A stretch of 41,257 nucleotides of DNA, from assembly GCA_947175495.1 (NCBI GenBank), contig CAMWNB010000020.1, positions 1-41,257 of the forward strand. Reading direction: 5' to 3'. The notes beneath the pieces were generated by a model. It saw nothing but the letters and a program-made list of their open reading frames with translations. It did not search any database and was not told the origin of the DNA. The translations under genes were made by a program, and so were the position numbers. The DNA is from an uncultured Porphyromonadaceae bacterium (GTDB taxonomy: Bacteria; Bacteroidota; Bacteroidia; Bacteroidales; Muribaculaceae). Shown here in pieces: positions 36,090 to 39,310 of the stretch (the stretch's first letter is position 1; each line of letters opens with the position of its first letter).

Positions 36090-36133
36090 TTGATGATATG
36101 AGTGGTTTTATTTGTTTTTTCGATACAAGCGCA

Positions 36134-36164
36134 CAAAGATAATCAAAATCTGCAAACTATGCAA
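36134..36164 (-). promoter_or_regulatory. Promoter of the SurA/PpiD-like gene
   Basis: TATCTTTG (36141 down to 36134) and TTG (36164-36162) with a 20-bp spacer. The -33 TTG overlaps the T run of the upstream terminator, so the two transcription units abut. Confidence 0.75.
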
Positions 36165-36191
36165 AAAATGCGGGCGGGCGTCCGCATTTTT
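36163..36191 (-). terminator. Terminator of the cysteine-rich lipoprotein trio
   Basis: Perfect 10-bp stem aaaaatgcgg/ccgcattttt (36164-36173 with 36182-36191, 8-nt loop) followed on the minus strand by TTTTTT. It is 27 bp after the thioredoxin-fold gene. Confidence 0.8.
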
Positions 36192-36218
36192 GGTGATTTC
36201 GCAGGGTTTCCGCCCTTT

Positions 36219-36794
36219 TCAAAGGCCCTGCAGATAGTTGTCGGTCCGCTCATAATCGCCGTAGCGGCATGTGAAATGCCCCGTCACTTTGCCATCGGAG
36301 TTTACCTTGAACAATACGGGAGTGCCGGCGTCTTCAAAGTCTATCGGAAGTGCGTCGCACGAATAGAGCGAGAACTGAGGTCCGAAATCGGGGGCCATGA
36401 CGTAGAGGTCGCGCAGCTGCGCGTTTTTGAGAAGTACTGCAATCCTTCGGTCGGGATGAGACCGGGCGAATCGCTGCAGGGAAGCCATAAGGGCATTTAC
36501 GCACGGGCGGCAGGCGGATGTGGAGAAACGTGCCACTAAAATGCTGTCGCCTGATATGGCCGCCAGTCCCACCGGCTCGCCTTTATAATTGAGTATTTTG
36601 ACGGAGTCGTTCAGAGGCGCGCCTTCAAATTCGGCGCTGATTTCCGCCTCCATGTCGATGTCGGCGGCTGTTGCCGGCGCGGATTCTATGTCAGATTGTG
36701 GGTCTGTTGTGTGCTTTCCCATAATCTCCGACACCTGGAATCCCAGACAGAAGAGCAGCGCGCCGGCTATGACGAGCAGAATTGTCCTTTTCAT
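36219..36794 (-). CDS. Thioredoxin-fold protein with CRPC motif, membrane-anchored
   Basis: 191 residues. An N-terminal hydrophobic segment (3-21) acts as an anchor or uncleaved signal. After an acidic linker, the thioredoxin-like domain (about 65-191) contains ARFSTSACRPCVNALMASL with the redox pair Cys95/Cys98, and the cis-Pro region AGTPVLFKVNSDG. It is predicted to work in the periplasm as a thiol-disulfide or redox-sensing protein. It overlaps the propeller lipoprotein stop by ATGA and is the last member of the trio. Similar small thioredoxin-fold proteins accompany beta-propeller lipoproteins of this type in Bacteroides. Confidence 0.83.
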   Translation of the reverse strand: MKRTILLVIAGALLFCLGFQVSEIMGKHTTDPQSDIESAPATAADIDMEAEISAEFEGAPLNDSVKILNYKGEPVGLAAISGDSILVARFSTSACRPCVNALMASLQRFARSHPDRRIAVLLKNAQLRDLYVMAPDFGPQFSLYSCDALPIDFEDAGTPVLFKVNSDGKVTGHFTCRYGDYERTDNYLQGL

Positions 36795-37894
36795 TGCATT
36801 TCGCTTTTGTGGAAGGAATAGACGGCAGGGTTGGCCTCGATGTCGGCGTTGTCGCGCATCTCAAGGCGCAGGCTGTCGGCGTCCAGAAGGAAAAAAGTGG
36901 TTTGAGTGTATCGCCCGTCGGGAGATGTGAAACTGCGCACGGTGCAACTGTCGGTGCCGGTGTCGTACCGCACGATGTAGTTCCGGCGGTCGTTTCCGGC
37001 AAGGCAGAAATACAGGTTGTCGCCGTCGGGCTGCAGATAGCGGATGAGCGAGACGTATTGCCGGCCCGGATCTTTGGTGAAGAAAGCCGACATTCTTTCC
37101 TGCAGATTTCCGAGGGCCTGCAGCTGTGGCGGGAATGCGTGGTGGCCGGCGTCGAGAACGTAGAGCGGACGCACGCCGCTGTCGTCGGCTGCGAAAATCG
37201 TGTCGCGCAGCGGCTCCCAGATGAGCAGGCGGCAGCGAGCGGTGTCGAGGCACGCGCCGTCCATCAGGTAAGCGCTTTCTTTCACGTCGCGGCCGTCAAT
37301 CGGGGCACGATAAGAATAATCGCGGTTGTAGGCCGACACGAGAGGATTGCGTGCGGTGCTTCCGCCGGTCGAGCCGTTGATGGAGAGCACGTCGCCGTCG
37401 GCCATGGTGAAATATTTTCTTATGGGCTGATTCTTTCGAAACTGCGTGCGGGCGAAGGGCCGGCGCTTCTCTATGAATGTGCCGTCGGCGAGATAGACAC
37501 CAAGCGTTTTGGCGTTAGAATCGAACACGAAAATGGTGTCGCCGCGGCTCCATACGTCGGAGATGTCGGAAAAGTCGGCCTCGCCGGAGCCGTATCGGGC
37601 TATGTCGCAGATGTAGGCGCCCGTGCGGCGGTCGAAGGCGCGCAGCTTGTTGCGAGAGGCGACTACATAGCTGCTCCCCGTGGGAAGCAGATGATCAATG
37701 CCGAACAGCAGCGACTGCGCGGAGGCTTCAAGACTGACGAGGCGGGCGGAGTCTACGACGCCTGCCTTGCATCGGTCAATGTCGACGCGCAGGCTGCGCG
37801 GCGGCTCGGGGCGCGTGTCGGCGCCGCAGGAAAGCAATGTGATGAGCAGCGGCAGCAGTAATAGGGCTGCCGAAAGAGACGGGCGTAGCTTCAT
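36791..37894 (-). CDS. Six-bladed beta-propeller (BF3164-like) lipoprotein
   Basis: 367 residues from the ATG at 37894, which begins a lipoprotein signal (lipobox LLSC, Cys23); 49 in-frame upstream codons are shadow. The body has repeating propeller strands: LFGIDHLLPTGSSYVVASRNKLRAFDRRTG, GDTIFVFDSNAKTLGVYLADG and CLDTARCRLLIWEPLRDTIF, typical of the 6-bladed BF3164 group. Ligand or partner is unknown. It overlaps the cysteine-rich lipoprotein upstream and the thioredoxin-fold gene downstream by 4 bp each (ATGA), a sign of a fixed stoichiometric set. Confidence 0.85.
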   Translation of the reverse strand: MKLRPSLSAALLLLPLLITLLSCGADTRPEPPRSLRVDIDRCKAGVVDSARLVSLEASAQSLLFGIDHLLPTGSSYVVASRNKLRAFDRRTGAYICDIARYGSGEADFSDISDVWSRGDTIFVFDSNAKTLGVYLADGTFIEKRRPFARTQFRKNQPIRKYFTMADGDVLSINGSTGGSTARNPLVSAYNRDYSYRAPIDGRDVKESAYLMDGACLDTARCRLLIWEPLRDTIFAADDSGVRPLYVLDAGHHAFPPQLQALGNLQERMSAFFTKDPGRQYVSLIRYLQPDGDNLYFCLAGNDRRNYIVRYDTGTDSCTVRSFTSPDGRYTQTTFFLLDADSLRLEMRDNADIEANPAVYSFHKSEMQ

Positions 37895-38157
37895 GATTCG
37901 GGAATGCATATGCACCTGAGGCCGCAGCAGGCGTAGTAGCCGTCGTCGCATGTGACGGAGCAGCCGATGGTTGTCTCGCCGTTTATGTCGATTCCGGCAG
38001 GCACTTCGCAGGTGCTTGTGCCGGGGCCTCCGCTGTAGCATTGCGCGGTGGCTGTGGTTTCCGTTGTCGCCTTCTCCGCTTCGGAGTCCGTCTTGCAGGA
38101 TGAGATGAGGAAGAGGGCGAGATTGGCTATAAAAAGCAGAGAAATGAATTGTTTCAT
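37891..38157 (-). CDS. Small cysteine-rich lipoprotein, NVEALA-like in context
   Basis: 88 residues from the ATG at 38157 (MKQFISLLFIAN). A lipoprotein signal ends in SSC (Cys21). The mature chain is a Thr/Ala/Glu-rich spacer and then a compact domain with eight cysteines (CYSGG, STCEV, IGCSVTCDDG, ACCG, LRCIC), which could make four disulfides. Small Cys-containing peptides next to BF3164 propellers and thiol proteins occur in Bacteroides (NVEALA group), but the NVEALA sequence itself is not present, so this is a contextual resemblance. It overlaps the propeller gene by ATGA. Function unknown; a surface signal, toxin or ligand is possible. Confidence 0.75.
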   Translation of the reverse strand: MKQFISLLFIANLALFLISSCKTDSEAEKATTETTATAQCYSGGPGTSTCEVPAGIDINGETTIGCSVTCDDGYYACCGLRCICIPES

Positions 38158-38305
38158 CGTTCTATTGTTGCGCAACATTAATTGATATAAAGAATAACAA
38201 TCTAAATGCGAGATCGTTTTCGGCGATAGTCGGCGATTCTGTCGTCGGTGGCATTTTTGTTGTGCTCAAATTGAGAAGACGGGCGATCCGTGGTTATGTA
38301 ATAGA

Positions 38306-38338
38306 CAAAAAACGGGCAGACGCCGCGCGTCTGCCCGT
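38306..38338 (-). terminator. Terminator of the unknown 234-residue secreted protein
   Basis: Perfect 12-bp stem (38312-38323 with 38327-38338, 3-nt loop) followed on the minus strand by six T. The region 38158-38305 holds the leader of the trio operon, AT-rich, without a clear promoter. Confidence 0.88.
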
Positions 38339-38362
38339 GGAATGAAGCGGAGATGTCCGGAA

Positions 38363-39067
38363 TCAGTCGAGACTGTCGGTGAAGCGCTTTTTGTCGGCCT
38401 TACGCGCGGCTTTGGCCTGCTTGGGGTCGAGCGTGGCCACATCGGTGATGTCAATTGTGATGCTCACATGGCACTCTGTGGAATTTGCGTCAAACAGCCG
38501 GCGGAAATTGGCTCCGGTCGCGGTGATGTCCAGGTTCTGCCCTATGGCGCGCAGCGAGTCTGTGGAGACCGTGGCTTCATGGGTCGGCGCGTATGCACAA
38601 GTGATGGTCCATGTCTTTATTTTGGAAGCGCTTCCGGTCATGCGCATAAGTTTCTCATCGTCGGAATTGACGCGGGCGGCAACGTCGTATGACAGTATTA
38701 GCTCCGTTTCCGTATCCGACAGCACGCTGTCGGCATTGGCTGTGTTTAATGGTGTGGGCCAAAAACCGTTGAGCGCTTTTATTGCCAATGTTTCTTTGTC
38801 TATGGTTTTTCCTTGAAACGTGCCGCTTACGCTGTCGGCATATATCTTATAATCGACCTTGCCGTCGCCGTCCACATAATACACTACCGTGCCGGAAGCT
38901 GTGGCGTCAAGGCCTCCGGTAGTGTTGGCACATTCATAAACTGCATGGTATGTGCCTTCGATTCGTGTCGCGGGTCCGGCTGCCTTTGCCACGAGACATG
39001 CCGCGGCCAAAACCGTCAATGCCAAAAATTTCTTTGCAACAGAAAGCCGGGTGTGTTTGATTTGCAT
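38363..39067 (-). CDS. Secreted or lipid-anchored protein of unknown function
   Basis: 234 residues from the ATG at 39067 (MQIKHTRLSVAKKFLALTV); 50 in-frame upstream codons run through the promoter. The signal could end at AKA-A or be a lipoprotein site at AAAC. Beta-rich mature part with several Thr/Asp strands (TASGTVVYYVDGDGKVDYKIY) and a highly charged C-terminus (DPKQAKAARKADKKRF). No family recognised. Strong promoter at 39091-39122 and terminator make it monocistronic; codon use resembles the neighbours. Confidence 0.75.
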   Translation of the reverse strand: MQIKHTRLSVAKKFLALTVLAAACLVAKAAGPATRIEGTYHAVYECANTTGGLDATASGTVVYYVDGDGKVDYKIYADSVSGTFQGKTIDKETLAIKALNGFWPTPLNTANADSVLSDTETELILSYDVAARVNSDDEKLMRMTGSASKIKTWTITCAYAPTHEATVSTDSLRAIGQNLDITATGANFRRLFDANSTECHVSITIDITDVATLDPKQAKAARKADKKRFTDSLD

Positions 39068-39090
39068 AATACTTGATTGATGTTGGTGTG

Positions 39091-39122
39091 CAAATTTATA
39101 TATAATCTTTTGACCGGGCAAC
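39091..39122 (-). promoter_or_regulatory. Promoter of the unknown secreted protein gene
   Basis: TAAATTTG (39098 down to 39091) and GTTG (39122-39119) with a 20-bp spacer, 24 bp before the ATG. Confidence 0.65.
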
Positions 39123-39242
39123 TTTTTGTTTGTTTTTTTGACAAATACGTTGGATAAGTTGACGAAATCGCGAGTTTGTGTGTTTTTTGCTGATATATGT
39201 GGTCGGAGCGGAGTCATAGGGCAAATCTATCGTTCCGGGGCA

Positions 39243-39290
39243 CAAAAAAAAGCAATTGCTATGTTTGCTGAGGAAATGCAAACATAGCAA
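39243..39290 (-). terminator. metK terminator
   Basis: Perfect 13-bp inverted repeat (39256-39268 with 39278-39290, 9-nt loop). On the minus strand it is followed by a T run (39250-39243). It ends 20 bp after the metK stop. The interval up to 39123 is AT-rich and shows nothing else. Confidence 0.85.
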
Positions 39291-39310
39291 CTGCCGTTAT
39301 GTTTCCGGAA

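Follow-up and report, generated by a model that had tools for sequence, protein, structure and literature searches.

A small cysteine-rich putative lipoprotein linked to a six-bladed beta-propeller, with an optional protein of predicted thioredoxin fold, in an uncultured member of the Muribaculaceae

Peptides of the NVEALA family (PF14055) and propeller lipoproteins recur in gut Bacteroidota and form a functionally uncharacterised kind of system. In the open-access literature we found no paper containing the word NVEALA and, among the papers listed, no functional study of BF3164, DUF5128, DUF4934 or other DUF and Pfam names; the preliminary description of the locus presented here held that NVEALA/BF3164 loci have no known function. 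In the excerpts available, BF3164 appears once, as a table entry for a putative lipoprotein (PMC1887533), and the six-bladed propeller BT0664 of Bacteroides thetaiotaomicron is listed under iron limitation with values of -4.2 and 0.353 (PMC10434189), which are not used as evidence here.

PF14055 matches were found in 2 of 59 genomes of the family and in 16 of 295 of the order, and stretches were fetched for 15 of 15 family places and 32 of 52 order places, together with propeller- and thioredoxin-centred stretches. Home-made profiles detected in them 53 NVEALA-type frames outside the cysteine-rich family described below. A same-strand propeller lies downstream within 400 bp in 42, and within 1.7 kb in 48, of the 51 frames with enough downstream DNA. 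Of all 53 frames, 26 have a thioredoxin-type gene no more than 4.5 kb away. Such loci had supplied part of the seed sequences of the profiles, and the presence of NVEALA was the reason for choosing most stretches, so that these counts describe a layout and are no blind test. Pfam analysis of six NVEALA-side thioredoxin genes placed DUF1573 over the cut-off in four, just below it in one and found none in one. Whether or not a thioredoxin gene lies within 2.5 kb makes no clear difference to the number of peptide cysteines (mean 4.0 with n=23 against 3.5 with n=30), and cysteine counts are even in 36 of the 53 frames, a weak tendency. In one genome, G055 (loci L068-L078), there are 14 NVEALA matches; generally a separate propeller gene comes after each, and several have a CxxC thioredoxin-type gene as well. 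In another (G090, L096:7346-8638), an O-antigen-ligase-type gene (PF04932) stands among NVEALA and propeller genes; in the excerpt of PMC10434189, the O-antigen ligase BT0662 and the propeller BT0664 of B. thetaiotaomicron bear near-consecutive locus numbers.

The locus described here lies in a window of 41,257 nucleotides, by which we mean the whole stretch of DNA analysed (contig CAMWNB010000020.1 of assembly GCA_947175495.1, an uncultured Muribaculaceae bacterium). It consists of three genes (Table 1) encoding a small lipoprotein (P0001), a propeller lipoprotein (P0002) and a CRPC protein (P0003), the last ending in a stop codon at 36221-36219. Re-reading of the sequence gave the same coordinates and strand as the preliminary description, and both ATGA overlaps.

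Table 1. Features of the trio and of the metK-ppiD site, in window positions.
Feature	Position	Strand	Basis
Trio, three genes	36219-38157	-	sequence and translation
Small lipoprotein gene, 88 aa	37891..38157	-	translation, family alignments
6-bladed beta-propeller lipoprotein gene, 367 aa	36791..37894	-	translation, PF17170 match
Gene of membrane-anchored CRPC protein, predicted thioredoxin fold, 191 aa	36219..36794	-	translation, structure model
ATGA overlap, small gene stop / propeller start	37891..37894	-	sequence
ATGA overlap, propeller stop / thioredoxin start	36791..36794	-	sequence
Terminator-like hairpin 3' of the gene upstream of the trio, 12-pair stem and T run	38312..38338	-	terminator scan
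3.2 kb between ppiD and metK, holding the trio and an orphan secreted-protein gene	36090..39310	.	empty site, GC
Orphan secreted-protein gene in the metK-ppiD gap	38363-39217	-	found in 1 of 49 genus genomes, its own

A separate promoter is probable for the trio, because the terminator-like hairpin follows the upstream gene; the scan returned 6 such sites where chance would give 4.3, which makes this hairpin weak evidence on its own. Scanning for sigma-70-type promoters brought up none in the stretch preceding the small gene, which tells little, as Bacteroidota promoters differ.

A small secreted protein adjoining a six-bladed propeller is the layout of NVEALA-type loci, and the window's gene order is also seen, for example, in the NVEALA loci L072, L075, L076 and L163. 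The preliminary description had called the trio related to NVEALA/BF3164 loci; this stands for the peptide-propeller-thioredoxin layout, with its small secreted cysteine-containing protein, adjacent propeller and optional thioredoxin, but not for family membership. PF14055 was not reported for P0001 at E<=1 (curated cut-off 27 bits) and gave no match in its genome, the best score among the relatives being 13.6 bits in G162. The N-V/I-E-A-L-A motif after the signal is absent from P0001, a similar DVESLS occurring in G162. With the home-made NVEALA profile, G162 scored 15.5 bits with a bias of 11.1 and P0001 was not reported at E<=100. A profile-profile alignment of the two peptide families covered six leader residues, and direct NVEALA membership was rejected; a weak, composition-biased score in one member (G162) does not establish kinship of the two families. 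NVEALA tails vary, whereas the cysteine core of P0001 is conserved, and the window's CRPC protein lacks the DUF1573 of four of the six NVEALA-side genes, the two thioredoxin types aligning weakly around the CxxC. P0002, in turn, was not reported for BF3164 (TolB_like PF15869, cut-off 29.2 bits) at E<=1. Its identification as a propeller was borne out by a PF17170 match of 35.8 bits, above the curated cut-off of 22.9, over residues 46-145 only; it thus resembles DUF5128/6-bladed beta-propeller proteins, a family without defined function. Its signal, read by eye, ends in the lipobox-like LLSC.

Judged from its sequence, P0001 is a member of an unnamed cysteine-rich domain family with the pattern GGxG...YYACC. 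Its hydrophobic signal ends, again as read by eye, in the lipobox-like ISSC (C21) and is followed by C40, C50, C66, C70, C77, C78, C82 and C84, that is, by eight cysteines in 45 residues, as had been claimed. None of the members searched reached threshold against Pfam, NCBIfam or PDB sequences. A PHROGs match of P0001 (phrog_2682, E=0.0003, residues 4-48) was disregarded, since it lies for the most part in the signal and the linker. The structure model of P0001 is of low confidence (mean pLDDT 59, strands only) and too poor for interpretation. The cysteine order C-C-C-C-CC-C-C resembles that of the WAP four-disulfide core, and the C-x3-C and C-x-C spacings resemble those of CS-alpha-beta defensins, but P0001 has no Pfam match, its low-confidence model holds only strands, and the family profiles A1 and A5 found no PDB entry at E<=1. 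Kinship with either fold was rejected.

Relatives of the small protein are scattered. A family-level search matched 9 of 198 genomes at E<=0.01, and the cysteine pattern is kept in six of these, namely the window's own genome (G000), G131, G162, G168, G176 and G118; of these, G168 is placed in the window's genus and G118 in its family. An order-wide profile search of 393 genomes matched only the window's own. Scanning genome contigs for a single strict peptide pattern turned up 27 stretches, seven of which encode relatives: two are new, L060 (Muribaculaceae) and L065, and the other five were taken as G131, G162, G168, G176 and G118. G709 and G889, which have two copies apiece, came from the search of the phylum (8 of 316 genomes), and G962 from that of the family of G709 (3 of 92 genomes). 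Plasmids gave no match to the window domain and a single weak lead, a Flammeovirga protein that keeps the motif (E=0.1); viral contigs gave two pattern stretches and no relative. Eight weaker matches are not counted: the neighbourhoods of G142, G185 and G135, the rest of the nine, and of G893, G780 and G848 from the phylum search were read and place the match in larger, opposite-strand or stop-containing frames, and G773 (a stop inside) and G787 (stops inside), also from the phylum search, were discounted. In L065 (115-846), on a contig labelled Acidobacteria, the YYACC domain sits inside a 243-aa frame that precedes a TonB-dependent-receptor-like frame.

In a 13-row alignment of the domain, the positions C, GG, G, C, C, Y, CC and C are invariant. 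Six cysteines stay, while the third and the seventh come and go as a pair: both are present in seven rows and absent in five, and one row, G962, is ambiguous, having cysteine 3 and an ending CxC that MAFFT shifts by one cysteine. The paired loss in five relatives predicts a disulfide between the corresponding residues of P0001, and C66-C82 are probably so joined. It speaks at the same time against another reading, in which the cysteine cluster would be a thiol switch or a metal site and the thioredoxin its reductase, since a structural disulfide is what such a pattern, with six cysteines retained, would be expected to reflect. This redox- or metal-sensor explanation could draw on the CxxC partner found in 4 of the 10 loci described below and on regulators just upstream of some relatives (LuxR-type in G709 and G889, AraC-type in G962), but no regulator gene adjoins the window trio, and we regard it as improbable.

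A cysteine at the end of the signal is present in the window protein only, among seven full-length members aligned. Some of the others end their signal at an A-Q junction, which fits the Bacteroidetes Q-rule as given in the excerpt of PMC5837995, and the small frame of G131 is without a clear signal sequence. The conservation of the trio is more than chance: the cysteine pattern is kept in the relatives, and in the comparison of G168 with G176 all three genes have a dN much lower than their dS (small 0.005/0.053, propeller 0.015/0.141, thioredoxin 0.089/0.529), as under purifying selection.

At ten loci the domain forms a small protein by itself (G000, L060, G131, G162, G118, G168, G176, G709, G889 and G962), and the neighbourhoods of these were compared; G168 and G176 are near-copies. 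A same-strand PF17170 propeller lies within 1.6 kb in all ten, in one by inference across contig ends, and the propellers of the nine loci other than the window's also score above the PF17170 cut-off. The two genes adjoin directly in G000, L060, G162, G709, G889 and G962, and apparently also in G131, where they lie at the ends of two different contigs; the thioredoxin stands between them in G118, and two other genes separate them in G168 and G176. An intact CxxC protein of the P0003 family is present in four loci (G000, G118, G168 and G176), always in the same-strand set. G162 retains only a C-terminal remnant of it (E=1.1e-5), with the small and propeller frames still open, and G131, G889 and G962 showed no thioredoxin. 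The G709 pair has none beside it either, the CSPC protein there being part of a divergent set next to it, and the DNA of L060 stops 211 bp past the propeller. The core of the system is therefore the small protein with the propeller, and the thioredoxin is optional. The survey thus upholds only in part the trio of the preliminary description: small protein and propeller are neighbours throughout, whereas the third gene is intact in fewer than half of the loci.

Two further genes were observed near these sets. One, directly past the small gene of G118 (L039:2708-4720), is a lipoprotein-like frame of 670 aa whose transglutaminase-like core matches PF01841 slightly above the cut-off; the other, near the G168 set, encodes a TPR protein with sub-threshold DUF6377 similarity.

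P0003 has an N-terminal hydrophobic segment and its CRPC at residues 95-98. It had been described as a thioredoxin-fold protein, and the AlphaFold model (five sequences, mean pLDDT 68), with a thioredoxin strand-helix order and the CRPC at a helix start, supports at moderate confidence a membrane-anchored protein with this predicted fold, although no Pfam or NCBIfam family matches at E<=1. Membrane anchor, CxPC and predicted fold are shared with TlpA/ResA-type thioredoxins; in the absence of a family match over threshold, the likeness is one of fold order and motif only. In the otherwise near-identical G168 and G176 sets, the dS of the thioredoxin is 0.53 against 0.05-0.14 in the other genes compared (L043:5046-5666, L044:2993-3613), as if this gene had been replaced by recombination.

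The preliminary description proposed that the CRPC protein forms or edits the disulfides of the small protein, which the propeller would then bind or export. Paired cysteine loss argues for the disulfides, and their editing by the thioredoxin is a plausible hypothesis, but the patchy retention of the thioredoxin tells against it, as does G128, in which the thioredoxin follows two propellers and no small relative was found by genome search or by eye upstream. These observations would fit an explanation in which small protein and propeller cooperate, the thioredoxin serves the propeller or the envelope generally and the disulfides form independently, as the small protein is kept where no thioredoxin was seen or where a relic is left. 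Of 16 genomes tested, 9 carry VKOR, another source of disulfides; G118, G162 and G128 are among the 9, whereas G000, G168, G176 and G131 are without it. On the other side, the intact thioredoxin never leaves the same-strand set and in G118 stands directly between propeller and small gene, the G128 propellers have few cysteines, and the window's own genome is among those without a VKOR match. This explanation is a serious but somewhat less probable competitor of the one we prefer. VKOR presence was also considered as an explanation of where the thioredoxin is kept and rejected, there being no pattern over the 16 genomes. In G162, the pair of small gene and propeller has a frame containing VKOR within a few kb (L040:12138-13262).

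The site of the trio bears on its origin. In G611 and G590, whose PpiD proteins are 79-83% identical to the window's, ppiD follows metK by about 160 bp, and the two genes are likewise adjacent in L115 and L116; metK was not found in the other 6 of the 10 fetched stretches. Third-position GC is 0.64-0.75 in the trio against 0.885-0.888 in ppiD and metK, and the nearest domain relative in the 13-row alignment, G131 (57%), belongs to another genus. From the empty site, the lower third-position GC and this relative we read the trio as gained horizontally, loss in the relatives being less likely. No convincing flanking repeats mark an insertion. The orphan secreted-protein gene of the same gap has sub-threshold LptC similarity. 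In G055 (L075:6133-8500), metK stands between an NVEALA-propeller-thioredoxin set and ppiD, and the site may possibly have been used repeatedly.

We favour, at a probability of roughly 0.4, an operon acquired by horizontal transfer whose centre is a secreted, disulfide-rich mini-protein together with a propeller dedicated to it, the CRPC thioredoxin being an accessory. The mechanism we infer is that the small protein would be exported by Sec, lipid-anchored in the window version, and would owe its fold to disulfides, with C66-C82 probably among them. Its cognate envelope partner, as a carrier, a receptor or an immunity-like binder, would be the propeller lipoprotein encoded on the same message, and the membrane-anchored thioredoxin would reduce or reshuffle wrong disulfides, a help that several lineages do without. 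As to biological use, our guess is a ligand acting on other cells. Besides the thioredoxin distribution and G128, this model has against it the longer domain carriers L065 and L184, with no propeller in the DNA available, the poor small-protein model and the unclear G131 signal. Cognate pairing also found no support in the NVEALA loci: peptide and propeller distances correlated over 39 pairs (tails r=0.33, leaders r=0.24) and less without G055 (27 pairs, tails r=0.21), but the correlation vanished when propellers were thinned to <35% identity (28 pairs, tails r=-0.05), and we therefore attribute it to recent joint duplication.

The same partnership might serve antagonism: the small protein would be an antibacterial peptide, with the propeller conferring immunity to it or carrying it. 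A small, secreted, cysteine-rich protein of patchy, horizontally moved distribution would suit this role, as would the multicopy state of the NVEALA analogues in G055. Yet the window protein is predicted to be lipid-anchored, no dedicated exporter gene lies within the set, PADLOC gave no match for the five proteins scanned, and the domain core is conserved and not diversified, so that we consider antagonism rather unlikely.

The preferred reading of a mini-protein with its own propeller would, if true, mean a bacterial disulfide-rich ligand that comes with its own partner and a folding helper. More broadly, and only tentatively, Bacteroidota may possess an extensive, so far unstudied system in which every secreted cysteine peptide is paired with a propeller lipoprotein of its own and, optionally, with a dedicated thioredoxin; the window's branch of it would be a conserved, envelope-tethered disulfide-core mini-protein. 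The trio is a variant of the NVEALA-propeller kind, and given the conserved core of cysteines, the relic of the thioredoxin and the empty site, its YYACC branch provides a small protein that can be purified and whose disulfide and partner can be tested.
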